60,397 bases of DNA from Desulfobacteraceae bacterium (GTDB taxonomy: Bacteria > Desulfobacterota > Desulfobacteria > Desulfobacterales > Desulfosalsimonadaceae): contig QZJS01000098.1 in the NCBI GenBank assembly GCA_003597945.1, forward strand, positions 1 through 60,397. The letters run 5' to 3'. Shown here in pieces: positions 30,189 through 47,764 of the stretch. Numbering within the stretch: position 1 is the stretch's first letter; each line of letters begins with the position of its first letter. Under the pieces are notes generated by a model. It ran no database searches, was not told where the DNA came from, and saw nothing but the letters and a program-made list of their open reading frames with translations. A program made the translations under genes and the position numbers.

Positions 30189-31205
30189 ATGGTGAGGCTG
30201 TTGATATTTATGGATGAAGAGATTTTAAGGGCTGATCCCCATTCAAAAAGAAAAAAAATTGCGATAGCGATATTTGTCGGCGTTATAGGTCTTCTGGCAA
30301 TTGTTGCATTTCTGATTTTCGGCTTATTGGTAAAAGACTATATCATCTTTGATGCAAATAGAATTCAGGCTGCCAATGAATTAACTATGCTTAATTCTCG
30401 TATTAAAGAGATGGAAAATCGACTTTATGAGCATCGGGCCTCCTTATCATCGCAACTGAAAACAGGAAAAGATCAGCTTCAAGAATTGGATGAACTCATT
30501 CATAAACGCAATGCTCAAATAGACTCCCAACAAAGATTGATTGCCGAGTACGATGAATTAATGAAAAAAATCGACTTGGCAAAGAAGGAATACCAAAGCA
30601 CGCTGGGAGATATAAAGTTACTTCGTGAGAGTGCGGCAAAGGAAATGGGTGTTATTACAGCACTCAAAAAGGAAAACGAAATACTTGAAGCCCAAAAGTC
30701 GGCGCTTAATAAAGAATTGGCGGAACTCGATAAGGCCAAAAAAAGTAGCAATCAGTCCATTGAAGACCTTGCTCGTCAACTAAGGGACCTGAGTGGAAAA
30801 GAATCCATCGCCAGGGCCGAATTTTCAGAATTACAGGAAGCTTTGACAGAAACTTCCGCGAATCTGGCTATACAAAACAATAAGATTGAGAGCGCGCGAA
30901 GATCTCTATCCATATTGGAACAAGAAATCAGCGAAATGAAATTGAATCATGACACTCTCTCGGCTCAAATTATCCTTGCCCAGGAAACCTTCACAACCAG
31001 AACGGCTGATAAGGAAAAATTGATTGCGACAGTTTCTGGACTGACACAAAAAAAAATAGAACTCTCCTCGGAAATTGCATTGCTGGAAGAACGTAAGCTT
31101 GGAATGGAATCCCAAACAAAGGCATTGGATATCAAGATTAAACAAACCAACGAGCGCCTGCAGGCAATAAGTCAGAAAGTTGAGACGGATAAGGCCAACG
31201 ATTAA
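30189..31205 (+). CDS. single-TM, long coiled-coil protein (first gene of putative CoCoNuT-like operon)
   Basis: TM IAIFVGVIGLLAIVAFLIFGLLV followed by ~270 residues of heptad-like coiled coil; 5 nt from the next gene. Confidence 0.75.
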   Translation: MVRLLIFMDEEILRADPHSKRKKIAIAIFVGVIGLLAIVAFLIFGLLVKDYIIFDANRIQAANELTMLNSRIKEMENRLYEHRASLSSQLKTGKDQLQELDELIHKRNAQIDSQQRLIAEYDELMKKIDLAKKEYQSTLGDIKLLRESAAKEMGVITALKKENEILEAQKSALNKELAELDKAKKSSNQSIEDLARQLRDLSGKESIARAEFSELQEALTETSANLAIQNNKIESARRSLSILEQEISEMKLNHDTLSAQIILAQETFTTRTADKEKLIATVSGLTQKKIELSSEIALLEERKLGMESQTKALDIKIKQTNERLQAISQKVETDKAND

Positions 31206-31210
31206 AAAGG

Positions 31211-33145
31211 ATGGTAAACCATTTGAACACGCCAATCTATTTTTATCTTACCGGAATTTCTTTTGTTACAATTTTGGTCATCGTTCTGTGTTTATCTGTT
31301 TACTATTACATCAAGGCAAAAGATATTGCACCCTTCCTTCTGCGCCTTGAAGATTTGCAGAGAAAGATTGCCGAAGCACAAACTACACTTGAGGAGACCA
31401 AAAGGGAGTTACGTGACAAGCAGAACGAAATTGCCAAGGCGGACAGACTGATCGCTGAAGGGAAAATCGCTGAGCAATGGCTGGCCAATAACAGTTCACA
31501 GATTGCGGTTTTACGGATCGAAATTGACAAGCAGAAAGCAAGATTACAAGAGGCCACTGAAAATTATCAAAAACGGCAGGAAGAGTTAAACGAACTGACC
31601 CAACGGGTATCTGACAAGCATGTTGAAATTAATGCCGCGACGGAAATAAAAAACACTTTGGACATCGAAGTTTCTAAATTAACAGCGGATTTAAATTCTA
31701 TTAAGGATTTAATCGCGCAAAAAACAAAACAGGAAAACGAATTAACGGACAGTATCACAAAACTTCAAAGTGCCAAAAACCAATGGGAGGCGAAAGTCCG
31801 GGATTTGATAAATCAAGCCAAGTTGCTTGAAAAACAGTTGGAAGAAAACACATCTAATCTTGATCAAATTAAAGATGAACTCGGTAAGACAAAGAAAATA
31901 TTGGCAACAACAGAAGGTCAAGCGCTGGCTGCTGAAAAAACGCTCGCGCAATTGGCTAAAACTCAGGAAATAGACAAAGACCGCTGGAAGGATTTGGATA
32001 GAAAATTTATTCAGAAATCGCAACCTTTAAACGCATCAAATTTGGTTGAAAACGACTGGCTGGAGGAGTTCATGGGCTCGTTGCGTCAACACGGGTTTAT
32101 TTTTAATGAGCGGGCTATTCTATCTTTCCATACAGGCTTGAAATGTGCCAAAATTTCCCCCCTGGTTGTCTTGGCAGGGATTTCCGGTACAGGAAAAAGT
32201 CTGTTGCCTGAACTCTATGCCGCCGCTTTGGGCATGCACTTCTTGCCTGTTGCGGTACAGCCGCGGTGGGACAGTCCCCAAGACTTGTTTGGTTTTTATA
32301 ATTACATGGAAGGACGGTATAAGGCGACGGAATTATCCCGCCTATTGTGGCAGTTTGACAAATACAACAATCAAAATGCGAAGCAACTCTATCAGAAGCG
32401 GATGCCCATGAACCTTGTTCTGCTGGATGAAATGAATCTGGCTCGGGTGGAATATTATTTTTCCGATCTGCTAAGCAAACTTGAGATACGCCATGGGCTG
32501 GATCCAGAGAATGATATGAGCAGAATAAAAGCGGAAATCGAGATCGAGTGCAACGCCTCAGCTCAAGATAAGCAGACTCGGCGTTTGTTTGTTGCCCTGA
32601 ATACGCTCTTTATTGGCACGATGAACGAGGATGAAAGCACTCAGACCCTTTCCGACAAAGTAATTGACCGCTCCAATGTCATTCGGTTCGGTCGTCCAAA
32701 GCGACTCGCGGTTACTCCTAGCAAAGAAAGGTTCTTTGAAAAATGGACGCATATAGAAGGCATTACTTTTCAAAATTGGACAGACTGGTGCAAGCCGAAC
32801 CAAGACCTAAGGATTCGAGAAGAACTAAATAAAACATTGTGGGAAATAAATGGGATTTTGGCGGGAGTCCATCGGCCATTCGGCCATCGCGTCAATCAAG
32901 CTATAATACAATATGTTGCCTGCTATCCCGGCGATTATAATAAAGCGCTTGCCGACCAAATCGAGATGAAAATTCTGCCCAAGCTTAACGGGTTAGATAG
33001 CCAAGTAAACGGTTTTGACATTGCAATGACGGCAATCGAAGGTATTATTGGTGGGTTGGATGATAGTGAATTGCATGAGGCATTCAAGGAGTCAAGGGAG
33101 AAAGCCGCTGATTCTTTTTTCAAATGGCGCGGTGTGATGCGATAG
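31211..33145 (+). CDS. TM + coiled-coil + McrB-like AAA GTPase
   Basis: N-terminal TM; coiled coil; LAGISGTGKSLLPELYAAALG, VQPRWDSPQDLFGFYNYMEGRYK, NLVLLDEMNLARVEYYFSDLLSKLE, and McrB-type IGTMNEDES. Confidence 0.9.
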   Translation: MVNHLNTPIYFYLTGISFVTILVIVLCLSVYYYIKAKDIAPFLLRLEDLQRKIAEAQTTLEETKRELRDKQNEIAKADRLIAEGKIAEQWLANNSSQIAVLRIEIDKQKARLQEATENYQKRQEELNELTQRVSDKHVEINAATEIKNTLDIEVSKLTADLNSIKDLIAQKTKQENELTDSITKLQSAKNQWEAKVRDLINQAKLLEKQLEENTSNLDQIKDELGKTKKILATTEGQALAAEKTLAQLAKTQEIDKDRWKDLDRKFIQKSQPLNASNLVENDWLEEFMGSLRQHGFIFNERAILSFHTGLKCAKISPLVVLAGISGTGKSLLPELYAAALGMHFLPVAVQPRWDSPQDLFGFYNYMEGRYKATELSRLLWQFDKYNNQNAKQLYQKRMPMNLVLLDEMNLARVEYYFSDLLSKLEIRHGLDPENDMSRIKAEIEIECNASAQDKQTRRLFVALNTLFIGTMNEDESTQTLSDKVIDRSNVIRFGRPKRLAVTPSKERFFEKWTHIEGITFQNWTDWCKPNQDLRIREELNKTLWEINGILAGVHRPFGHRVNQAIIQYVACYPGDYNKALADQIEMKILPKLNGLDSQVNGFDIAMTAIEGIIGGLDDSELHEAFKESREKAADSFFKWRGVMR

Positions 33146-36100
33146 CCATGGACGAACGGAGCGTGATAGAGTTACGGGCATACCTGCGCAAGGTTGATCC
33201 CGAGCCTGATGCTGCGATTGACTCTTTTCGGGAACAGGTAGATATTATATTCAAACTGCGCATTGAGGCCGAAAAAAACTTTAAGAACAATCCCCATATT
33301 GCTAAAAGCAAACGAAAAGCACTGCCGCTTGGATGGCCTGCTATTACTCAAATACTTAATCCTAGTACAATGGCGCCGCCGGAAAAACTCATAACACAGA
33401 TTTCACGGGAATGTTTTAACGAGACAGACGAAATCATTCGCAATATGCGAAAGATTCTGACACGCGAACGGGAAAAGGTTTCGTTGGGATTGGTTCAGCA
33501 GGTTGATCCCCATTGTCTGCGTTGGTTGTCCAAGCAGCCTGGTTATAATGCGATGGAAAAGGCTGGTGCAAAGCAGCGGATTCTTGCAATAGTCAGGCGT
33601 GAGAATTTTAACACCATAGAAAATCGAATTTTTAAAGATTACCTGAAACGAACCAAACAAGAGGCAAGATTCTATTTGCGCGTTAATGGTAAAAAATTTC
33701 CAAACCATGAAGCAATCAAACGGGTAGCGAGACTTGAACGTCTCTGTGAAGAAGGGTTTCGCGATCCAATAATGGAAGGAATCACTGCGATTCAGGAACT
33801 TCCGATTCCAAATTATGTTTTGCGCCAAGAACGGAGATATTCGAAAATTTGGAAGGCCTATTGCGATCTTATCCGCCAGTCCGACATCGCGGAAAAGTTA
33901 TGGTTACGGCGCACAGAATTAGCGGTAACTCTGGAAAAACTTCGCTTAGAAGCCAAGGTACATGCTGATCCGCGCGCAAAATACCACAGTCCTATCTGGT
34001 TTAATTACTTGGACGGAAAGCACAATTTGCTGGAAAAGCCTTTTTATAAAAATGAGTTAATGAGTGCGGCCCACCAGAAATTCTTATCTTTCAAAAGAAA
34101 CCAAAATAAAGAGCCCGTCTTTCACCAGGATAATGTCATCATTGACTTGACCGGCAAGGAACCTTCTCGCGATTTGTTGATTTACGGCTGCCATGAAAAT
34201 GCCAAACCTTATCTTCAGGATTATAAAAAACCCTCCATCGAGAATATCAAGGCCGGCGAGCATTTTTTTCTGAACGACCTCTTGCACAAACATGACAAAA
34301 AAAACAGTCTTCTGCATTCGAGACTTCGTGATTACTTTGAACAGCTTTTCGCCCACATCGGCGGAAAAAATTGGCTTATACTTGTACCGGACGATTGGGA
34401 TGCGCTCTGGCAAGAAACGATTATAAAATCTATACCGCTTCCACGAAATAAGGTCTTCCTTTTATGGCGAAGCGTCGCAGCGGTCATCGGGATCATCAGC
34501 CATTTAGAAGATCCCCGTGAGAACGACACTGTCGTCATTGTTGATATTCAACAAGGCGGGATTGTCAGCATGAGTAAGCTGACGCTTGCGCTATGTGAAA
34601 ATGGGAATAGCCTGATTCCTCAAAGAAAGTCCTTTATCCGCCATCCCCAAAGCTATGCAAAGATAGTACTTTCTGTTAACGGTCCCATTCCAAAGCGAGA
34701 TGCTTTTCTGTATGGGAAAAAGTCGGATTATATATTGTCCCCGGCTGACATAACTGTAATAAATGCCTTTGCGCACAGGGCGAAGCATGTTGTCATTGTA
34801 AACAACAGTGGAATCAAAATCCCGATTTCGAAATGGCATATCACGGCAGGGGAACTGCTTGAAAGAGGCGCAAAACAGTTTATTACCCAAAGGGACAGGG
34901 GCCAGATTGCCTATTATGATGAACTGGAGGCGCTGTCACTTGTTGTCCAAACTGAGGATGAACGGATTCTTGCTAAGCCGCTGGTCGAAGCCGATGAAAA
35001 GTCGCCGGGAGGAAAAGAGATTGTCACGAAAACCATCAAGCGGGCGGCTGTCCTCAAGCGCGAGTCAGATTACGTAGATCTTGTTTTGTGCATGGGAGAG
35101 GCAACGCCCGACACATCGCTAAAAATCAAACGCCATGAATTTAATAAAAGCCTTATTGAAGACCATGCGATTGATTTGTCCGCAAGAATGACGCCTGGAC
35201 AGGGAATGGCAGTGGTAACGGTCACGTCCGACTTCTTGCGAAAACCGATTGAGCTGGATTTCCTCCATGGCATGACGGACAAAGACCCGAAGGGCCGAGC
35301 GCTAACGATGTCATCCCTCGAAAATGAGATGGAACGCAGTTTCCCTCCTGATTCACCGGATGTCATAGCCGATGATTTATTGTGGGCAGGTGTAAGGGAT
35401 CAAGTGGATGCTTACATGAAGGATCTGATATCGCCGGATGGGAGTTGGTTTGCAAAAGCACAAAGAATCTACCTCGACGGAGCGCCTCTGCCCAATCGGA
35501 TAAGTCCATTGGAACGACTGCGCAGGAAAAATGTATTCGGCAATGCTCCCGCACACCGTTTTCCATCGTTAGTTCAAGGAATTTTTGGTTTACTTGGGCA
35601 ACAGTTTAACTTTGAAGCCCTCTTCCAAAAGTTGGCCAGCGGGTATAATGGGCCTGATCATGCAGCCGTCATCCGGCTTATTGCCTGGACTTATGCATCA
35701 AATGAACCGGCTTTTGATCACATTCGGCGGCAGACGGTGAAACATGTTTTTGAATATGCGCAGGGTGCTACCTCGATAGCACCACTTCATCAGGAGATGA
35801 CGATTTGCGCGAATCTATGCGTCTCGCGAAATGAATGGCGTACATGCCTGAAAGCAATTGAGTATAGAGTAAAAGATTACAATAATAATGTTAGTCGAGA
35901 TTTTTATTTGCTTTATAATTTGCTGCAGTTCCATCCGTCGATTCTCAAAGACACCGGTTATTTTCAAAATGACGGCTGTTGGAAGATCGTGAAGCATATC
36001 CCACACTGGTATCACACTCATCGCCAAGGCACTGTCGCTATCGGATATATTCTGAAAAGCATTTTGTATTTTCTCAGATGCCGTCGATTTGACGGAAAGA

Positions 36101-36252
36101 AATTCCTCACCAGAGAATACGACCCCGAGCACTATGCAATTATCGCTGAATGCCTTAACTATTCGGTGCATCGGTCCCATGAGAAATTGCGACGGCTGGT
36201 CATCGAATATCTGAACAATAAAGGCACCATTGACGGATTACCCGTGGACTAA
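33124..36252 (+). CDS. DUF2357/McrC-N-like protein with apparent Hsp70-like (ASKHA) region
   Basis: McrC/DUF2357-like signature NFNTIENRIFKDYLKRT; later WLILVPDDWDALWQETIIKSI...VVIVDIQQGGIVSMSKLTL and GAKQFITQRDRGQIAYYDELEALSLVV, Hsp70-like; overlaps previous gene. Confidence 0.65.
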   Translation: MARCDAIAMDERSVIELRAYLRKVDPEPDAAIDSFREQVDIIFKLRIEAEKNFKNNPHIAKSKRKALPLGWPAITQILNPSTMAPPEKLITQISRECFNETDEIIRNMRKILTREREKVSLGLVQQVDPHCLRWLSKQPGYNAMEKAGAKQRILAIVRRENFNTIENRIFKDYLKRTKQEARFYLRVNGKKFPNHEAIKRVARLERLCEEGFRDPIMEGITAIQELPIPNYVLRQERRYSKIWKAYCDLIRQSDIAEKLWLRRTELAVTLEKLRLEAKVHADPRAKYHSPIWFNYLDGKHNLLEKPFYKNELMSAAHQKFLSFKRNQNKEPVFHQDNVIIDLTGKEPSRDLLIYGCHENAKPYLQDYKKPSIENIKAGEHFFLNDLLHKHDKKNSLLHSRLRDYFEQLFAHIGGKNWLILVPDDWDALWQETIIKSIPLPRNKVFLLWRSVAAVIGIISHLEDPRENDTVVIVDIQQGGIVSMSKLTLALCENGNSLIPQRKSFIRHPQSYAKIVLSVNGPIPKRDAFLYGKKSDYILSPADITVINAFAHRAKHVVIVNNSGIKIPISKWHITAGELLERGAKQFITQRDRGQIAYYDELEALSLVVQTEDERILAKPLVEADEKSPGGKEIVTKTIKRAAVLKRESDYVDLVLCMGEATPDTSLKIKRHEFNKSLIEDHAIDLSARMTPGQGMAVVTVTSDFLRKPIELDFLHGMTDKDPKGRALTMSSLENEMERSFPPDSPDVIADDLLWAGVRDQVDAYMKDLISPDGSWFAKAQRIYLDGAPLPNRISPLERLRRKNVFGNAPAHRFPSLVQGIFGLLGQQFNFEALFQKLASGYNGPDHAAVIRLIAWTYASNEPAFDHIRRQTVKHVFEYAQGATSIAPLHQEMTICANLCVSRNEWRTCLKAIEYRVKDYNNNVSRDFYLLYNLLQFHPSILKDTGYFQNDGCWKIVKHIPHWYHTHRQGTVAIGYILKSILYFLRCRRFDGKKFLTREYDPEHYAIIAECLNYSVHRSHEKLRRLVIEYLNNKGTIDGLPVD

Positions 36253-36254
36253 TT

Positions 36255-39200
36255 ATGAAACTTGAAGAATTCCTTGGCATCTGGCAGCTCACGGCAAAGA
36301 AACGGAGTGTTTCCATTGGCTATACCGCGTTATGCCGAGAGATTGAAAAGCTTGATCCGGGGGAAATTGGCTATAAGGTGATTAGGCGTTTGGAGGACGA
36401 GGGTTTCATTTCAACCTTGCCCAACGGCCACCGTATTCTGACTGATTTAGGTCTTTCCAAAAGAATTCCTTTACCCGTCCGCCCAGTTGTAATTGAAAAA
36501 AGCAATGAACAGAACTGGGCAAGGTTCAGAAGGCTCTGTGTATATTATGCGGATTGCGTTACCCAGTCGGAAAAAACGCAAGAATATCTTTTTCAGAAGG
36601 ATTTGAACACCAAATATCTACTACCCCGATTGCCGATTGACTGGTTAAGCAATGACGATTCAATGCGACTTGCTTTCAGCAATTTGGAACGTCCGGCGGT
36701 TAATCGCATTAAAAGCCGCAGTGATGACGCCGAAGATATCTATATTGGATATCCGCTAAGCGCGTTTCACGATTCGCGCAATCAAATGGTATTTTCACCG
36801 ATCCTGCTCTTCCCGGCGGATGTGACTTTTGACACGACAAGCCTTGAAGTGACAATCCGGCGCGATGAAATCGACATTAACCGAACATGGCTGGAATACA
36901 ATGTTCCCCGTGACGACCAAAAGGACGTTCTTACAAGTATCTGTTTCTCTGCGGGAGATAAAACCGGGCTTTTGGATGCGGAGGTCGCTGTCCGGTATCT
37001 GGCCAATCGATTTAATGCCGATTTGGTCCCGAATCATCTTGATTACAATGTGACTCACCGCCCCAGAGGCATTGTCAACTCCGCCACATTGTTTGTTGGC
37101 AATCCATTGAAATACAGCAAGACGTTGAAAAAGGAACTGCGTGAAATCAGCAATCAACCGCCACATGTATTGGATCAGACAGCACTATCATATGTGTTCC
37201 GAGATCCTCCACTGGAAAATCAATATGAAATGAACCCATATATCGTTCCACTTGATTTTCTGGAAATGCCGTCCAACTACGAACAGCACGAAGCACTTAA
37301 ACAGGCCCTGAACCTGCCGGTTTCCAAAGTGACCGGACCGCCAGGAACCGGCAAATCGCAGGTTGCGGTGAACCTTATCGCGAACTTGGCTTTTTATGGC
37401 CAATCAGCACTGTTCACCAGCAAGAACCACAAGGCAATTCATGCGATTATTCAAAGGGCGGAATCTATAATGCCGAAATTGCCCTTGATGCAATTCTGCA
37501 CAACGGAAGACGGCTCCGCAGGCGCGGTTTGGTCAAACTTGCCTATAGATTTTGTGATTGCGCAAAGCGAGGTTATCAAGCAACAAAAGGGTTTCACGGA
37601 TGATTTTCCTCTCATGCGAAAATTTGAAGACTCGTTGGAAAATTTGTGTGATTTTGAGATGTTGTTTGCCGAAATTAATGATGCTCGCTTGGCGTTGCAG
37701 AAAATTCAGGCAAAGTATGATCAAATTTTTCCGAATATTTCGGTGCCGCTGGATACTTTATCCGTGGATTATTGCCAGCAACTTGAGAAACTATCGAACC
37801 GGATCAGCCTGGATCAAGACACGCGAACTTGGATACAAAGGGTTTTTGATTTTCTGTTTCTGCGCCAATATCGAGCGCATAATGCGGAGGTGGAGTTAAG
37901 AAAAATATTGCCGGAAATTTCAGCAGCAGCAAAGAATCCGGAGACATTGCGTAAACGCGTATTACGGTTATGTGGAGATATCGCTGATTATTTGGCGATC
38001 AAGGATGAAGAGGCTTTGCTTTATGAAAAAACATTGACACTACCGGAGGATGACCTTAAACGACTGGCGGAAGAAATAGCTTTCCGGCGTAAGCATCTGG
38101 GTGATATATTTTTAGCTAAACGCGTTTTTGCGATAAAAGACGTCCCCGATAATATTCGACAACAACTCAAAGATGCCTCGCAACGAATCGCCCGCCAAAA
38201 TCTTCCGTTCTTAGCACAAGTACTTCCGGTTTCCAGTATTGAAGAGGCCCAAGATTCATTCAAGCAGTTTGCAAATTTTTTCCCTGCGTGGGCGACGACA
38301 TTGTTGTCGTTGTCAAAAGCATCACCATGCGTGGCCGGGCTGTTCGAAAGAGTGATTATCGATGAAGCCTCCCAGTGCGAAATCCCTCCAATCATTCCCG
38401 CCCTCTATCGCGCTAAAGGCATGACAGTTATCGGTGACCCTGCTCAATTTCCGCCAGTTATTACCATGCGGGAAGCCCGCCATGCCCACATCCGATTCTT
38501 TAAGCATAAATTAACCGATTTGTCGGACGAACGATTTGACTTCATGAAACATAATGCCTTTGATGTCGTTGCAACTCATCCTCTGATGCTTCGCGAACAT
38601 TTCCGCTGTCACGCGGACATCGCTGATTATTTCAACGAAGAATATTACACAGACAAATTAAAGGTAAGAACTCATCCGGGAAGCCTCAAGTTTCCACGCA
38701 ATATGGGATTTCGCAGGGCGCTGGAATGGCGAAACGTTCATGATTCAATGGAAGATGAGATCGCTGAGGTTAAAAAATTAATGCAAGACCTGCGGCAAAA
38801 TCAATATGATGGAAAGATTGGTGTTATCTCTCCATTCCGTAAAGTGGCGGATAGGCTAAAGCAAGAACTTTATAATTACCAGCCCCTGCTTGATGTGGAA
38901 AAAGATGTTAATACCGTGAACGGGTTTCAAGGAGGCGAAAGAGATTTAATCGTCTTTGTCCTGGGGATCACGAGTAAATTGACAAGAGGCGAGGATTGGT
39001 ATGCCGTGGCGGAGGAAAACAGGTACATCTATAATGTAGCCGTGAGCCGTGCGCGGGCCTGTTTAATTGTTATTGGTGACCGGGAAAAGGCCCGTCAATC
39101 AAAATCTTCGGCCTTGCGGAATTTGGCAAAAGATATTGAACAGCGCCCACGAAAAACTTTATCACAATCACCTGGTGAAGAGATGATGTACAAAGCTCTT

Positions 39201-39467
39201 TGCGAGGCGGGCTTCGATCCCAAACAGCAATATCCTTTAGTCGGACGGTATCTCGATTTAGCGCTTGTGGATGAAAAAATTGATATTGAGGTTGATGGAG
39301 AAGGTTTTCATCTCAACAAATTTGGCGAACGTAAGCATGATGATATTTACCGTGACCTGCAAGTAACTTCAGTCGGATGGCGTGTTTGCAGGTTTTGGTA
39401 TCGGGAAGTCCGCGATAATCTTTCTGATTGTATTGAAAAAGTACAACAGACAGTAAAAAATCACTGA
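36255..39467 (+). CDS. SF1 (UPF1-like) helicase with C-terminal Vsr/DUF559-like nuclease domain
   Basis: VTGPPGTGKSQVAVNLI, RVIIDEASQCEIPPIIPALYRAKGMTVIGDPAQFPPV, VNTVNGFQGGERDLIV, YNVAVSRARACLIVIGD; C-term SPGEEMMYKALCEAGF...GRYLDLALVDEKIDIEVDGEGFHL. Confidence 0.9.
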   Translation: MKLEEFLGIWQLTAKKRSVSIGYTALCREIEKLDPGEIGYKVIRRLEDEGFISTLPNGHRILTDLGLSKRIPLPVRPVVIEKSNEQNWARFRRLCVYYADCVTQSEKTQEYLFQKDLNTKYLLPRLPIDWLSNDDSMRLAFSNLERPAVNRIKSRSDDAEDIYIGYPLSAFHDSRNQMVFSPILLFPADVTFDTTSLEVTIRRDEIDINRTWLEYNVPRDDQKDVLTSICFSAGDKTGLLDAEVAVRYLANRFNADLVPNHLDYNVTHRPRGIVNSATLFVGNPLKYSKTLKKELREISNQPPHVLDQTALSYVFRDPPLENQYEMNPYIVPLDFLEMPSNYEQHEALKQALNLPVSKVTGPPGTGKSQVAVNLIANLAFYGQSALFTSKNHKAIHAIIQRAESIMPKLPLMQFCTTEDGSAGAVWSNLPIDFVIAQSEVIKQQKGFTDDFPLMRKFEDSLENLCDFEMLFAEINDARLALQKIQAKYDQIFPNISVPLDTLSVDYCQQLEKLSNRISLDQDTRTWIQRVFDFLFLRQYRAHNAEVELRKILPEISAAAKNPETLRKRVLRLCGDIADYLAIKDEEALLYEKTLTLPEDDLKRLAEEIAFRRKHLGDIFLAKRVFAIKDVPDNIRQQLKDASQRIARQNLPFLAQVLPVSSIEEAQDSFKQFANFFPAWATTLLSLSKASPCVAGLFERVIIDEASQCEIPPIIPALYRAKGMTVIGDPAQFPPVITMREARHAHIRFFKHKLTDLSDERFDFMKHNAFDVVATHPLMLREHFRCHADIADYFNEEYYTDKLKVRTHPGSLKFPRNMGFRRALEWRNVHDSMEDEIAEVKKLMQDLRQNQYDGKIGVISPFRKVADRLKQELYNYQPLLDVEKDVNTVNGFQGGERDLIVFVLGITSKLTRGEDWYAVAEENRYIYNVAVSRARACLIVIGDREKARQSKSSALRNLAKDIEQRPRKTLSQSPGEEMMYKALCEAGFDPKQQYPLVGRYLDLALVDEKIDIEVDGEGFHLNKFGERKHDDIYRDLQVTSVGWRVCRFWYREVRDNLSDCIEKVQQTVKNH

Positions 39468-39696
39468 GTTGCGCCAAAAATTCAGCTTCCTGCAAAACAT
39501 GATACGAATCATGGTAATTAATAAAGATTGTTGGGTTAAAAAATCAGGGAAGATTTCCGATTATTCCCCATCACCTAAGAAGCGGATACCTAAAAAACCA
39601 TGCTCGGAAGGATATGGTTTCTGAGCGCAAGATTGTATGTCTCAAGCGAAAAACATCTCGATAAAAAGATATGCCCGAAACAGAATCTCAATTCAT

Positions 39697-40302
39697 ATGA
39701 AGAAAATGACTGCCATTGATTATTACCGTACCCACTGGGCGCAGTACCACGACAAAACTATCAATATTGACCCGGCCGGTTTTCTCTCCGGGTTTGTCAG
39801 GCATCTTCGGCATGGCGATCACGTTCTCGACGTCGGGTGCGGTTCCGGTCGGGATCTGCTGTGGCTCAAACAGCGGGGATTTTCCGTTACCGGATTCGAC
39901 GCGTCGCCGGGATTGGCGGAACTGGCCCGCCGTCATGCCGGCTGTCTCGTGATCGAAGGTGATTTCGAAACCTTTGATTTCCAGGCTCTGAGCGTTGACG
40001 CCGTCCTGATGTCCGGTTCTTTGGTTCATCTGCCTCACGACCGCCTTGCCCCGGCGCTGTCAAATATAGTAAACGCTCTCCGGAAAACCCCGGAAGCAAG
40101 GGTTTATCTGTCTCTCAAGGAAGGCGAAGGTTTATCGCGCCATACCCATAACCGTATCTATTACCTCTGGCAGGATCAGGATATCCGGTCCATCTTTGCC
40201 GATCTCGGATTGACGGTTTTAGAGACTTCCCGTTCGGAATCCGCCAGGGGAACCGGCGAAATCTGGCTTGGCTATATACTGGCGCGGGATAAGAATCCAT
40301 GA
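39697..40302 (+). CDS. class I SAM-dependent methyltransferase (no DNA-MTase catalytic motif seen)
   Basis: HVLDVGCGSGRDLLWLKQRGFSVTGFDASPGLAELARRH; 4-nt ATGA overlap with next gene. Confidence 0.85.
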   Translation: MKKMTAIDYYRTHWAQYHDKTINIDPAGFLSGFVRHLRHGDHVLDVGCGSGRDLLWLKQRGFSVTGFDASPGLAELARRHAGCLVIEGDFETFDFQALSVDAVLMSGSLVHLPHDRLAPALSNIVNALRKTPEARVYLSLKEGEGLSRHTHNRIYYLWQDQDIRSIFADLGLTVLETSRSESARGTGEIWLGYILARDKNP

Positions 40303-43300
40303 CAGATGATCTCAAAAACAAGGCCATCATTTATCAGAAGCTGGTGCGGGATCGCATTCCGGAAATTATCCGGAATCAGGGCAAGGCGCCTTATATCCGC
40401 AAAATTGAAGGCCCTGCGCTTTGCAAAGCGATCAGTGAAAAAGTGATCGAAGAAGCATTTGAGCTTTATACCGAACTGCGAGGCGAAAACCGGAATGCCG
40501 TGCTCAAGGAATCGGCCGATCTGCTGGAAATCGTGCTGGCGGCGCTTGAGGTGCATGGGTTTACCCTTGATGATCTGCTGGCCCATGCGGAAATCCGGCG
40601 TCAGGAACGCGGCGGGTTTGCGGAGCGCATTTTTCTCGATCAGGTGGGCGGCGGCGAACTCTGCGAAATCGAATTTCAGAAATATCCGGCTTTCGTTTTT
40701 AATCCGTTTGCCGGCGGCAAGCTGATTCACATTATTCGAACCGAACTGGCGCACAGCACGTCTGCCTGGATCGCATCGGCCTTTTATTCGCCGGGGGCCA
40801 CCAATCTACTGCTGGCGGAGATGACGAAATTTTTAAAGGCCGGCGGTTCGATGAAACTGCTGCTGTCGACAATGGGGAACATTACAAAACCAGAATATCT
40901 TGAGCATCTGATAGCGCAGGTGCCCGAACAGTGCGTCAAGGTATTTCATCCCCCGGATCTGGCCTTTGATAACATCCCTCCGCATTTTCATGTCAAAGCA
41001 TGGCTGTTTGAGCATACGGACGGGCAGGGCGCCATGATTATCGGTTCATCCAACCTGACCCGGGGCGGCCTGGTCAACAATATCGAGTGGAATTATTTTT
41101 CTCCGCGTGAAATCAACATCATCTATGATCGCCGCGAATCTCCCTTTCAATCCGCCGTAACCGAATTTGAGCGCATCTGGGAAAATGAGTCCACGGCGGT
41201 TACCGGCGAATTTTTAGCGGCCTATCGCCGCCGCCGGCCGGTGCTCAGCGACTGGGCCGTGCCGGATCAAGAGACGCCGGAACTTTTTAACCTGCAGGAA
41301 GAATATGGAAAAGCGGTTTCTTTTGCGGCGCCCAATGACGCGCAGAAAGAAGCCCTGGAAAATCTGGCGGAACAGCGCCGCCAGGGTGCAGCCCGGGCCG
41401 CGGTGGTTGCGGCCACGGGACTTGGCAAAACCTATCTGGCGGCCTTTGACTATCAGCGGAGTAACTGCCGGAGTCTTTTGTTTATCGCCCATCGCGAAGA
41501 TATTTTACGCAAAGCCCGGGATACGTTTCGTCATGTGACGGGCGATCCGTCTTTCGGCGCGATGCTGGGCCGGGGGAATACAGAGACCAGCGGCTCCGAG
41601 GCGGTGTTTGCCATGATTCAGACCCTCAGCCGGGCCCGTCATCTGGACGGCTTTCTCGCCAGAGATTTCGAATATATCGTCATTGATGAATTCCATCATG
41701 CCGAGGCCGCCAGTTATCAGCGCATTTTATCCCATTTTCAGCCGAAATTCCTGCTGGGCCTGACCGCCACGCCGGAACGAATGGACGGCCGGAGCGTGCT
41801 GGCTTATTGTGATTACAATGTGGCCTATGAAGTCCGGGTGCTCGAAGCCGTCAACCGGGGGTGGCTCGTGCCGTTTCAGTATTTTGCCATCTACGATGAA
41901 ACCGATTATGAGCAGATCCCCTGGCGGGGCACTTTTTATGACGAAGCCGCCCTGGATCAGGCCCTAAAGAATGACACCCGCACGGCCATTGCCGCGGCCA
42001 ATCTGAAAAAATACCTGCCGTCAACCGGTAAAATCAAGGCCCTGGCGTTCTGCAGTTCGGTCAGCCACGCCCGCTATACCGCGGAAAAACTGACCAGGGA
42101 TCACCAGCTTCCGGCGGTTGCCCTCTGGGGTGAAACGCCGGATGATGACCGGCATAATGCCATGGATCGTCTGCAAGACGAATCCGATGCACTGAACGTG
42201 ATCTGCACGGTGGATCTGTTTAACGAAGGCACGGACATCCCCGCGTTAAGTCATGTGCTGTTTTTGCGGCCGACCCAGTCCTTTACGCTGTTTCTCCAGC
42301 AGTTGGGCCGGGGCCTGCGGAAACATCCGGCCAAGGATTTTCTGGTGGTTCTCGATTTTGTCGGAAACTTCCGGAAATCCCATATCGCGCCCCTGGCCCT
42401 TTGCGGATACAGCTCTCTGGATTCGTTTGAAAATTTGAAACCGGCGATAGTGCGGGAAACGCTTGAGCAACGGCTTCCGGACGGGTGTTATGTCAGCGCG
42501 GATATCGAGGTTCAGCGGCTGTGGGATGCCGAGGTGCGGCAGATCATGGATAAACATCTGCCGCTGGCCGATCGCCTCAAGCTGGTTTATCAGGACATCA
42601 AGCAGGATCTTGGACGGGAAACCCCGCTTGAACTGTCGGATATGCTGTCCAATGCCAGTGGTGTTGATCCGTATTTGTATCTTAAAACCTTCGGAAGCTG
42701 GCTTATCGCCAAAAAGGAATGCGAAAACGGCAGGCTCTCCGACAAGGAAGCGCAATGGCTGAACACGCCGGGAGATTATCTGCTCCGCCACATTGAGACG
42801 GGCCTGAATCCGGTCAAATCATACAAAATGGTGGTTATCCTGGCCCTGCTCAAGCTGGAGGGGACGACCTGGAAAGCGGACGATATTGCGCGGGAATTTC
42901 TTGGGCATTATCTGGCGCATCCGGATCAGATCGCCGATTTTGATGCCCTGGCAAAATCACCGGAACCTGAAAAATTTCGGATCTCTGATGTCGTGGCGCA
43001 CCTCAAGCGTATGCCCCTGGATAAAATGAGCAATGCGGAAACCGACTGTTTTATTCTCGACAGCGCAGCCAATACTTTTCAGCTCAAACCCGAATATGTG
43101 CCTTACTGGCAGGACCCGTTTTTCCGGGCCCTGGTCAAGGACCGGGCGGAATTTGTGCTGGCCCGGTATTTCCTGCGCAAGCGCATGCAGGATACCATCT
43201 ATTTCAGCGAATCCATATTTTCAGAAGGCTTTCCCGTGAGCCGCAGGCTTGTGGAAGCATGTTGTGAAATCCCCCCGTCGCCGGGTGAAAAGCGCCCGCT

Positions 43301-43499
43301 AACCATGCGGATTGATAAACGGAACTTCAACGCGGATCTGGTGCGGGACGCGGTGGGAAATTATAAAATCGCCTATACTGAGGATAGCCCTATTGCCGGG
43401 TTTCTCCGAAAAACGCTGAGTCCCGCACCGGAAAAAGATGCAAAAATATTCCGGCTGCAGGCTGAAAACGATTATTTACGGCTTGCCGTGATTCAATAA
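40299..43499 (+). CDS. MazG/PRA-PH-like NTP pyrophosphohydrolase - PLD nuclease - SF2 DEAD/DEAH helicase fusion
   Basis: YQKLVRDRIPEIIRNQG...EKVIEEAFELY...ESADLLEIVLAAL; HFHVKAWLFEHTDGQGAMIIGSSNLTRGG (PLD); AATGLGKTYLAAF, VIDEFHHAEAASY, LTATPERMDG, QQLGRGLRKHPAKDFLVVLDFVGN. Confidence 0.88.
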   Translation: MTDDLKNKAIIYQKLVRDRIPEIIRNQGKAPYIRKIEGPALCKAISEKVIEEAFELYTELRGENRNAVLKESADLLEIVLAALEVHGFTLDDLLAHAEIRRQERGGFAERIFLDQVGGGELCEIEFQKYPAFVFNPFAGGKLIHIIRTELAHSTSAWIASAFYSPGATNLLLAEMTKFLKAGGSMKLLLSTMGNITKPEYLEHLIAQVPEQCVKVFHPPDLAFDNIPPHFHVKAWLFEHTDGQGAMIIGSSNLTRGGLVNNIEWNYFSPREINIIYDRRESPFQSAVTEFERIWENESTAVTGEFLAAYRRRRPVLSDWAVPDQETPELFNLQEEYGKAVSFAAPNDAQKEALENLAEQRRQGAARAAVVAATGLGKTYLAAFDYQRSNCRSLLFIAHREDILRKARDTFRHVTGDPSFGAMLGRGNTETSGSEAVFAMIQTLSRARHLDGFLARDFEYIVIDEFHHAEAASYQRILSHFQPKFLLGLTATPERMDGRSVLAYCDYNVAYEVRVLEAVNRGWLVPFQYFAIYDETDYEQIPWRGTFYDEAALDQALKNDTRTAIAAANLKKYLPSTGKIKALAFCSSVSHARYTAEKLTRDHQLPAVALWGETPDDDRHNAMDRLQDESDALNVICTVDLFNEGTDIPALSHVLFLRPTQSFTLFLQQLGRGLRKHPAKDFLVVLDFVGNFRKSHIAPLALCGYSSLDSFENLKPAIVRETLEQRLPDGCYVSADIEVQRLWDAEVRQIMDKHLPLADRLKLVYQDIKQDLGRETPLELSDMLSNASGVDPYLYLKTFGSWLIAKKECENGRLSDKEAQWLNTPGDYLLRHIETGLNPVKSYKMVVILALLKLEGTTWKADDIAREFLGHYLAHPDQIADFDALAKSPEPEKFRISDVVAHLKRMPLDKMSNAETDCFILDSAANTFQLKPEYVPYWQDPFFRALVKDRAEFVLARYFLRKRMQDTIYFSESIFSEGFPVSRRLVEACCEIPPSPGEKRPLTMRIDKRNFNADLVRDAVGNYKIAYTEDSPIAGFLRKTLSPAPEKDAKIFRLQAENDYLRLAVIQ

Positions 43500-43552: not shown

Positions 43553-45112
43553 GTGACTTTTTTCATGTGCAGTCAATTGAAAGCTGATTATCCCATCCCA
43601 TTTCCGCGCTCTTATTGGGTTATCCCCGGTGTTTTTCTGGCCGGGGAGTTTCCCGGATCAAAAGCCGCCGGTAAGGCCCGTCAAAAACTTAAGCGTCTAT
43701 ATGATGCCGGCATCCGGCATGTGATCAATCTCATGGAGCCGGATGAAATCGATCACGACGGCAATCCGTTTGATTCCTATAAAAATGATTTAACAGAAAT
43801 CGCCGAAAAACAAGACGACATTATTTCGTTCAGCCGGTATCCCATCAAAGACCTGCATATTCCGGATTCGGATCAGATGACGGCGATCCTGGATGCCATT
43901 GATGCGGCAATTGAGGCGCATCAGCCGGTTTATGTGCATTGCTGGGGCGGGATCGGCCGGACCGGCACGGTGGTGGGCTGTTTTCTGATCCGGCATGGGC
44001 TGGCCACCAGCCGCAACGTGCTGGATGTGATCCATGGGCTTCGGAAAAATGACCCGAAAAATTATCGCACATCTCCGGAGACATCCGTCCAGGTAAAGTT
44101 TGTCGCCTCATGGCAAAAACATGATGCGGCTCGCCATATCCGGCTGGATCGGTATCTTGGGTGCCTGGCGGGCCTTGCGGCAGGAGATGCGGTGGGGACC
44201 ACCCTTGAATTCAAACTTCCGGGTTCGTTTTCCCCCATTGATGATATGATCGGCGGCGGTCCTTTTGGCTTAAAGCCCGGCCAATGGACCGATGATACGT
44301 CCATGGCCCTGTGTCTGGCGGACAGCCTGATTCAATGCAACGGATTTGACGCGGCGGATCAGATGAAGCGTTATTGCCGGTGGCGGGATCAGGGGTATCT
44401 GAGCAGCATCGGGGAGTGTTTTGATATCGGCGGCACGGTGTCTTCCGCATTGTCGCGGTTTCAGGAAACCGGCGATCCGTTTGCCGGCTCCACCCATGAG
44501 CGCTCCGCCGGCAACGGCAGCATTATGCGGCTGGCGCCGGTGCCGCTGTTTTATGGCGGCCATCCGGAAACCGCCATACAGATGAGCGCGGAAAGCTCGA
44601 AAACGACACATGGCGCCCGGACCTGCATTGATGCCTGCCGGTATTTGAGCGGGTTGATCATCGGCGCGTTAACCGGCGAGTCCAGAGAAACGCTTCTGGG
44701 GCCGCGATACGCGCCGGTAAAAAATCTCTGGGGGGCTGATCCCCTGTGTCCTGAGATCGATGAAATCGCCCGGGGGTCATTTAAAACAAAGAATCCTCCG
44801 GAAATCAAAGGAACCGGTTATGTGGTCCAATCCCTTGAGGCCGCGCTCTGGGCGTTTTACCATTCCTCATGTTTTGAAGACGGCTGCCTGATGGCGGTGA
44901 ACCTGGGCGATGACGCCGACACCACCGGGGCGGTCTACGGCCAGCTTGCCGGCGCGTTTTATGGTTTTAAAAGTATTCCCCCCAAATGGCGGGATATGAT
45001 TGCCCATAAAGACATGATTGCTGATTTTGCGGTGAAATTGTGGCTTTCAACAAACGCTGAAAATAGGTTTTTGAGTGAAAATAAGGCGGCGAGCGGCTCA
45101 ATGCATTCGTAA
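43553..45112 (+). CDS. dual-specificity-type protein phosphatase fused to ADP-ribosylglycohydrolase
   Basis: [17 protein letters not shown] (Cx5R) then [71 protein letters not shown]; start may be downstream, near 43559. Confidence 0.88.
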
Positions 45113-46200: not shown

Positions 46201-46268
46201 TTACCGGTCTGGATAAATTTGCCGGCCATTTTGCCGGCTGTCAGGATCACTATATCGTTAATTGTTAA
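46197..46268 (+). pseudogene. truncated nucleotidyltransferase (AbiEii-like) toxin, N-terminal 23 residues only
   Basis: ATGA overlap with previous gene; translation MITGLDKFAGHFAGCQDHYIVNC-stop resembles the N-terminus of AbiEii-type nucleotidyltransferases. Confidence 0.6.
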
Positions 46269-46281
46269 TACTGGATTCCAC

Positions 46282-47764
46282 GATGAAGAAATCAGGTGTT
46301 AACCGATATCGGCTTTTCGTCAGCAGTGTTCAAAAAGAACTGGCGGCGGAACGACGCGCCGTAAAGGAATTTATCCTGCATGACCCTCTGCTCAGTCGAT
46401 TTATATCCGATGTTTTCCTTTTCGAGGACATACCGGCCGGAGACCGCAAACCGGATGATATCTATTTGGACGAGGTTAAAAGTTGTGATTTCTATCTCGC
46501 CGTTTTCGGGAATGAATATGGGTGGGAAGGTGAGTCCGGAAAATCGCCGACGGAGCTGGAATTTGACCACGCCACCAAAACCCATCGGGAGCGTCTTGTT
46601 TTTGTTAAGGGCGATGATGACAAGGGACGCGCCCCTAAAATGGCGGAATTGGTGCGCAAGGCAGGCCGACAGGTCACCCGCCGCCGATTTTCAGACATCC
46701 CCGGCCTGATCCGGGAAGTTTATGCCAGCCTTGTTGAGTGTTTGGAACAGCGCGGCGCCATTCGGTCAACGCCCTTTGACGGCAGCGTCTGTGATGAGGC
46801 AACACTCCGGGATATTGATAATAAGGCCGTTGCCGACTTTATCGAAACTTCAGAGGCCGCCGGACGCTTGAAACTTAAAGGGTCCCGATCTTCAAAAGCG
46901 GTTCTTCAGAATTTTAATCTGTTGCGTGAGGGCAATCCTACCAATGCGGCCATTCTTCTTTTCGGCAAAGATCCACGAAGGTTTTTTTTCAATATTCAGG
47001 TCCACTGCTTCCATTTTCATGGAATCGTGAAGCAAAAACCCATCGCATCCCAGCAGCCATATGAGGGACGGCTGTTTGAAGTCATCGATGAGGCGGTCGA
47101 GTTTGTTTTGGGCAAAATCGACCGCCGTGTCGGCACTCGCTCCAAAAGCGCTCAGGCGCCTGTTACTTTCGAAATTCCCCGCTCTGTTATTTTGGAAGCG
47201 ATTGTTAATGCGGTGGCTCACAGGGATTACAGGAACAACGGTTTCGTACAGGTATTCGTTTTTTCAGACCGCATGGAGGTCTGGAACCCCGGCGAACTGC
47301 CGCCCGGGCTTACCCCGAAGCTGCTGCGCGAGCCCCATGGGCCGATGCCTCGAAATCCTTTGATTGCCGAACCCTTATATCGGATCAAGTATGTGGAAAA
47401 GGCCGGCACCGGCACCACCGATATGATCGCCGATTGCCGGAAGGCCGGTCTTCCAGAACCAGACTTCGAGCAGCGCGGCCCGTATTTTGTTGTGACGGTG
47501 TGGCGGGATTGGCTGACGGATGAAGTGATGAAAAGGATCGGCTTGGGTGAACGGCAAATTAAAGCTATCATGCATTTAAAGGTTAATGGGCGGATTACGA
47601 ATAGAGAATATCGTGAATTAACTGAGACAATTTATCGCACTGCCTCACGGGATCTGGAAGATCTGGTTTCAAAGGGAGTTTTATGCAAAATCGGTGTTAC
47701 CGGCCGGAACGTCCACTATGTTTTGTCTCGTAAACAGGACATAAACAGGACAAACAGGACATAA
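46282..47764 (+). CDS. DUF4062 (TIR/SLOG-like) N-terminal domain + HATPase_4-type ATP-binding protein + wHTH
   Basis: NRYRLFVSSVQKELAAERRAVKEFI...CDFYLAVFGNEYGWE; AIVNAVAHRDYRNNGFVQVFVFSDRMEVWNPGELPPGL; EKAGTGTTDMIADCRKAGLPEPDF. Confidence 0.85.

Follow-up and report, generated by a model that had tools for sequence, protein, structure and literature searches.

The window analysed here is a stretch of 60,397 nucleotides (nt) from a Desulfobacteraceae bacterium (GenBank assembly GCA_003597945.1, contig QZJS01000098.1, positions 1 to 60,397), and it carries, between positions 39697 and 43499, two overlapping genes coding for a small methyltransferase and for a protein of 1066 amino acids (aa) in which a MazG-like domain precedes a PLD nuclease and an SF2 helicase. 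Judged from its sequence, this cassette is rare and represents a variant on the layout of the restriction enzyme SauUSI, in which a MazG-bearing, SauUSI-like restriction helicase is paired with a methyltransferase. The following features can be distinguished:

39697..40302, + strand: small class I S-adenosylmethionine-dependent methyltransferase, 201 aa (profile and motif scan)
40299..43499, + strand: MazG-PLD-SF2 helicase-coupler-beta-domain protein, 1066 aa, SauUSI-like (profiles, PDB sequence and fold matches)
40299..40302, + strand: ATGA overlap, translational coupling (4 nt common to both reading frames)
40329..40649, + strand: MazG/PRA-PH-like all-alpha nucleoside triphosphate (NTP) pyrophosphohydrolase domain, aa about 11-117, with N-terminal KLVRDxIPE motif
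40452..40520, + strand: predicted MazG metal-binding residues E52xxE55...E71xxD74
40707..41234, + strand: PLD nuclease domain, aa 137-312, with H231xK233(x4)E238 and GSSN at 249-252
41301..42398, + strand: SF2 helicase-like ATPase, aa 335-700, with ATGLGKT, DEFHH and QQLGRGLR
42399..43178, + strand: alpha-helical coupler, aa 701-960, with a profile match to the first part of DUF3427
43179..43496, + strand: C-terminal beta domain, aa 961-1066, at the position of the SRA reader of SauUSI, with a weak likeness to B3 domains in the model

Both open reading frames and their ATGA overlap were confirmed, and the translational coupling claimed in the original prediction, which a model had made from the sequence alone, was borne out. 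The earliest in-frame ATG of the methyltransferase gene lies at 39637, and the start at 39697 agrees with its homologues.

With respect to the core of the larger protein, the Pfam profiles ResIII (E = 3e-35), Helicase_C (1e-11) and PLDc_2 (9e-4) as well as the catalytic motifs uphold the earlier calls of a PLD nuclease and an SF2 helicase, since HxK(x4)E with GSSN, Walker A, DEFH and QQxGRGxR are all intact; the nuclease and helicase motifs are, moreover, conserved across 12 relatives. SauUSI (7clg) is the best match in the PDB by sequence (E = 6e-85, aa 229-716) and also the best fold match of an AlphaFold2 model (E = 1.5e-28, 792 columns), the full-length model being of low overall confidence (predicted local distance difference test score, pLDDT, 67; predicted template modelling score, pTM, 0.36) and therefore used at the level of the fold only. 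For the ATPase, RadD is one of the better relatives in both fold and sequence. The coupler, when compared by hhalign with the DUF3427 region of SauUSI-like proteins, gives a match (97.7%, E = 1.4e-12) that stops near aa 957, and by this profile comparison it is homologous to the first part of that region. In PADLOC, the type IV enzyme model mREase_IV matches in part (E = 1e-87) and no listed system matches in full, as the mREase_IV, PbeA and REase_I models are covered over part of their length only. By sequence and predicted fold, the 1066-aa protein is thus a relative of SauUSI, which supports the restriction- or defence-like identity that had been proposed for it. A viral origin was also considered and rejected, as no close viral relative was found and a single weak helicase match was obtained in IMG/VR; in phage and plasmid collections all relatives are under 60% identity.

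The N-terminal 140 aa, when scanned alone, reach 21.8 bits with the Pfam PRA-PH profile (gathering score 21.3) and match MazG weakly, the MazG part also scoring weakly in scans of the full-length protein, and PRA-PH profiles from the PDB match the domain with an E-value of about 2e-4. In the model the domain forms helices 39-61, 65-85 and 90-104 (pLDDT about 75-89). The putative ligands E52, E55, E71 and D74 are all present, so that the ExxE...ExxD residues have not been lost and the original assignment of an N-terminal MazG/PRA-PH domain stands, and they are intact in 11 of the 12 fusions compared, locus L102 being the sole exception. The domain therefore has the helical architecture and the ExxE...ExxD residues of known MazG/PRA-PH pyrophosphohydrolases (PF01503, PF03819) but differs from these in being fused to a nuclease-helicase and in that its activity is a predicted one. 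Nothing was found in favour of an effect on alarmones, as had also been suggested.

A search for MazG-PLD-helicase fusions and their methyltransferase linkage revealed such proteins, with 45-55% identity, in Desulfobacterota, Geobacteraceae and Methylococcales (L001-L008, L086-L089). The fusion occurs in five of the 395 genomes of the window's phylum and is thus as unusual as had been supposed, an architecture neither common nor already assigned; the literature searched yielded nothing relevant on fusions of this kind or on MazG together with SauUSI. In the tree the MazG fusions form one supported clade, joined by L010, a Victivallales protein that kept the methyltransferase and is without MazG. 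The methyltransferase lies upstream with a 4-nt overlap in the window as well as in L006, L007 and L100, overlaps by 1 nt in L101 and by 31 nt in L010, is separated by a gap of 20 nt in L008, is located farther upstream in L003 and L102, and adjoins a MazG remnant in L103. Such recurrence of the fusion at 45-55% identity, together with that of the coupled methyltransferase, shows the pairing of the two to be more than chance. In L004 and L005, both from Geobacteraceae, a HIT hydrolase stands in the place of the methyltransferase, again with a 4-nt overlap, L002 has neither partner, and the methyltransferase is found without MazG in L010, in L150 and, as judged from match coordinates, in an Aeromonas locus. 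Of the two-gene defence module originally envisaged the linkage is therefore conserved among relatives, whereas the gene set is not fixed. Defence genes adjoin several of these loci, with type I restriction-modification (RM) genes beside L102, AbiE genes beside L100, and Zorya/Dpd-like and NERD helicases beside L005.

In turn, a census of the window's phylum, in which 24 SauUSI-like loci were found in 22 of the 395 genomes, places the MazG fusion in a wider context. Five loci are MazG-fused, 12 have an adjacent or overlapping MutT/NudG-like Nudix gene, one is HIT-fused, one has a methyltransferase only and five have none of these, so that a hydrolase of the MazG, Nudix or HIT type is carried by or adjoins 18 of the 24 loci. 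The same is seen beyond the phylum: in Bacillaceae/Planococcaceae a Nudix gene in convergent orientation lies at the 3' end, or close to it, in each of the 13 loci examined, and in L071 (1979-2842), from Chitinophagaceae, the overlapping upstream gene codes for a methyltransferase-HIT fusion. In Staphylococcus aureus NZ_CP077890.1 (L174:3484-5389), SauUSI itself, the first 499 aa of which are essentially identical to 7clg and the helicase reading frame of which is broken in this record, begins 1 bp past the gene for a Nudix pyrophosphohydrolase. On plasmids, Nudix, SauUSI-like (DUF3427) and stand-alone MazG-like genes lie in a row, followed by another helicase gene, in L. plantarum (L170:3565-8960), HNH, HIT, Nudix and SauUSI-like genes lie together in Hymenobacter, and Nudix and SauUSI-like genes in L. 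curvatus. The MazG fusion therefore belongs to a broader pattern, the attachment of MazG, Nudix or HIT hydrolases to SauUSI-like enzymes; the original prediction was right in its domains, coupling and restriction-like identity, but it had seen only one case of this pattern.

Across the flanks of the sampled loci (about 1.0 Mb), 32 Nudix genes lie at most 300 bp from the core gene and one elsewhere, a ratio that is biased towards this subfamily because the search profile was built from three adjacent genes. On the tree, at least eight changes of the Nudix label are required, which means that the association arose or was lost several times; this is a quickly built tree, and since the core chosen for L144 probably represents the second helicase of that locus, details of single labels there are unusable. 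The scores of the associated Nudix proteins place them close to MutT as well as to NudG. Bell et al. (2020) noted, in the legend of one figure, that SauUSI homologues of Streptococcus have MutT homologues next to them (PMC7641849), and in the literature no functional work on the association of hydrolases with SauUSI and no mention of MazG or HIT was found.

Two further observations concern loci of this kind. Within one class, about 17 of 245 genomes have methyltransferase-HIT fusions (L071, L156-L167), several of which adjoin HNH nucleases or Dcm/Vsr genes and one of which adjoins a SauUSI-like enzyme. Also, the genome of the window has a second SauUSI-like locus on contig C9 (L107:4806-10933), which comprises a Dcm-type cytosine methyltransferase, a Vsr-like gene, an apparently frameshifted Nudix frame and a PLD-helicase.

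When compared with SauUSI, in which an H(X)K(X)4E nuclease motif and an SRA reader following the coupler have been described (PMC7913695), the window protein has the same PLD nuclease with HxK(x)4E, SF2 ATPase and helical coupler on a single chain, and the nucleotide hydrolase gene adjoining SauUSI parallels the hydrolase fused in the window protein. It differs, however, in its N-terminal MazG domain, the coupled small methyltransferase and the lack of a detectable SRA/DUF3427 reader, and in that the hydrolase of SauUSI is encoded by a separate Nudix gene. The SauUSI-like loci with MutT/Nudix genes (L012-L023, L104, L139-L148, L170, L174) likewise combine a SauUSI-like core with a neighbouring hydrolase, but this is a Nudix protein, usually encoded separately, and DUF3427 is present in those scanned (L018, L104, L170). 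In the window protein, the C-terminal half of DUF3427, which is the SRA reader of 5-methylcytosine, was detected neither in the whole protein nor in the C-terminus scanned separately. A separate model of aa 901-1066 (pLDDT 83) gave B3 and not SRA domains as its best Foldseek matches, the first five being of the B3 type (plant B3, LlaJI.R1) with probabilities of 0.82-0.99 but E-values of 0.02-0.15. Since SRA was not found and a weak likeness to B3 was, the window enzyme has a SauUSI-like working layout and probably reads a feature other than that read by SauUSI.

Taken as a whole, these data are best explained, in a tentative reading to which we give slightly less than an even chance, by a restriction cassette of SauUSI architecture whose MazG domain removes an unwanted, probably modified (deoxy)nucleoside triphosphate, (d)NTP. 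The domain order, the intact active-site residues, the conserved coupling and the recurrent presence of hydrolases are shown by the data, and for DNA cutting and its target, and for the MazG substrate and the logic of self-protection, we infer the following course. The C-terminal target-recognition domain would find a feature of the DNA, the helical coupler would relay recognition to the SF2 ATPase, which would then translocate, and dimeric PLD domains would cut the DNA. The N-terminal MazG domain would be an active pyrophosphohydrolase converting the modified (d)NTP to nucleoside monophosphate (NMP) and pyrophosphate, and from such an activity two roles would follow: on the side of the host, it would keep the modified nucleotide out of host DNA, where self-cutting could be provoked, and on the side of the phage, it would prevent modified nucleotides released by the breakdown of phage DNA from being used again. 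In relatives, the Nudix and HIT hydrolases would take the corresponding part. The coupled methyltransferase would be an accessory and, by its sequence, is probably no protective DNA methylase. A modified substrate is suggested by analogy, because E. coli Orf135/NudG (PMC10742078) and the human MazG-like DCTPP1 (PMC5389931) have both been reported to hydrolyse 5-methyl-dCTP, and SauUSI prefers modified cytosine, cutting DNA with 5-methyl- and 5-hydroxymethyl-cytosine (PMC7913695).

In a broader form, which is possible but rather doubtful, nucleotide hydrolases of the MazG, MutT/NudG-like and HIT types would be an integral and repeatedly re-recruited part of SauUSI-like restriction and would set self and non-self at the level of the dNTP pool by removing the precursor of the attacked base, and thereby host DNA would remain clean, unlike phage DNA synthesised from a modified pool. 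Few studies have asked how cells with modification-dependent nucleases escape damage to their own DNA once modified nucleotides have entered the pool, and a hydrolase that is fused to the nuclease or lies next to it in several lineages, and that neighbours SauUSI itself, provides an answer that can be tested by measuring two activities. If true, this would account for the presence of a seemingly house-cleaning enzyme alongside restriction genes.

Several observations weigh against the removal of a modified (d)NTP by the hydrolase. The Bacillaceae Nudix genes are convergent and not in an operon with the SauUSI-like gene, and no hydrolase is nearby in seven of the 11 plasmid loci viewed, in the five phylum loci mentioned above and in many actinobacterial loci. 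Because the SRA reader is missing from the window protein, a modified-cytosine target is unsupported for it. MutT-like genes could simply be clearing 8-oxo-dGTP, and to our knowledge HIT hydrolases do not act as dNTP sanitisers.

L102 (8130-11297) also counts against an essential hydrolysis, as it keeps the MazG domain with its ligands lost (E51Q, E55G, E71K) and the rest of the protein kept, and it speaks instead for MazG as a regulatory or oligomerisation module, which would bind or hydrolyse a nucleotide signal, or only dimerise, and hold the nuclease off until infection, Nudix and HIT proteins likewise removing a controlling ligand. MazG-family folds are oligomeric, the fusion in cis and the 4-nt overlaps suggest a stoichiometric partnership, and the release of NMP is the sole feature common to HIT, MazG and Nudix enzymes. 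However, the ligands are intact in all other fusions compared, and because the hydrolase in most loci is a separate, sometimes convergent gene, a purely structural role is disfavoured; overall, this alternative appears unlikely, albeit one to be taken seriously.

An abortive effector, in which MazG would destroy bulk (d)NTPs on infection and halt replication with the PLD-helicase as sensor, is improbable. The architecture is of a defence type and, according to PMC10014863, MazG enzymes are able to hydrolyse canonical NTPs. The protein, however, already has an intact nuclease, and no typical abortive sensor domain was found in it. Moreover, we know of no MutT/NudG-like or HIT partner acting as a depletion toxin.

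Ordinary restriction-modification of the NgoAVII type, with the methyltransferase protecting a site read by the B3-like domain and MazG being incidental, would account for the tight coupling of the methyltransferase and for the likeness of the C-terminal model to B3 domains including that of LlaJI.R1, B3 readers serving NgoAVII/CglI (PMC7913695). NgoAVII/CglI indeed have PLD, B3 and SF2 helicase modules (R2H2) of the same types, the B3-like C-terminus of the window protein being a weak, model-based resemblance, but there the nuclease and the ATPase are on separate subunits and not on a single 1066-aa chain, and the window has MazG and no recognisable cognate DNA methyltransferase. The 201-aa methyltransferase matches Pfam Methyltransf_25 (E = 5e-18) and no DNA methyltransferase family in profile scans, its best matches in a PDB profile search being small-molecule or unassigned methyltransferases. 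Neither motif IV, (D/N/S)PP(Y/F) or PC, where the region reads SGSLVHLP, nor DPPY/NPPY, PCQ or a target-recognition region was found in it, which upholds the earlier remark that such a motif is missing, and the upstream gene was rejected as a DNA methyltransferase on motifs and profiles. Together with its replacement by a HIT protein in Geobacteraceae and the high Foldseek E-values, this makes ordinary restriction-modification very unlikely. The Dnd-associated restriction helicase with putative methyltransferase (TIGR04095/TIGR04096) and PbeA are similar in having a helicase-type restriction protein, partly similar in its helicase, and a small methyltransferase partner, but no phosphorothioation genes were seen near the window cassette and the matches are sub-threshold.

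Least likely of all, and hardly to be expected, is that the hydrolases serve general genome maintenance, removing oxidised nucleotides near a DNA repair-like helicase without a role in defence, for while it would fit with RadD as one of the better relatives of the ATPase and with the MutT-like scores of the Nudix genes, a restriction enzyme is the nearest relative with an established function, and the SauUSI-like loci are patchy, with neighbours that include type I RM, AbiE, Zorya-like, Dcm/Vsr and CoCoNuT-like genes.

Plasmid homologues of the small methyltransferase (L181, L182, L183) adjoin HNH endonuclease genes or, in Devosia, DUF4007 and class V aminotransferase genes; in view of these neighbours, the methyltransferase may partner defence nucleases in general.

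The cassette itself is embedded in a defence-rich stretch of the window. Upstream, at 30189-39467, lie four genes like those of the Type III-B CoCoNuT system of PMC11090510, coding for a coiled-coil protein, an AAA_5/McrB-like ATPase with a coiled coil, a DUF2357/McrC-like protein and a UPF1-like helicase that ends in a C-terminal MTES_1575/Vsr-like nuclease. Directly downstream, at 43577-45112, a dual-specificity phosphatase domain is fused to an ADP-ribosylglycohydrolase, and a DUF4062-HATPase_c_4 fusion at 46262-47764 has weak matches to Argonaute-associated models of PADLOC.

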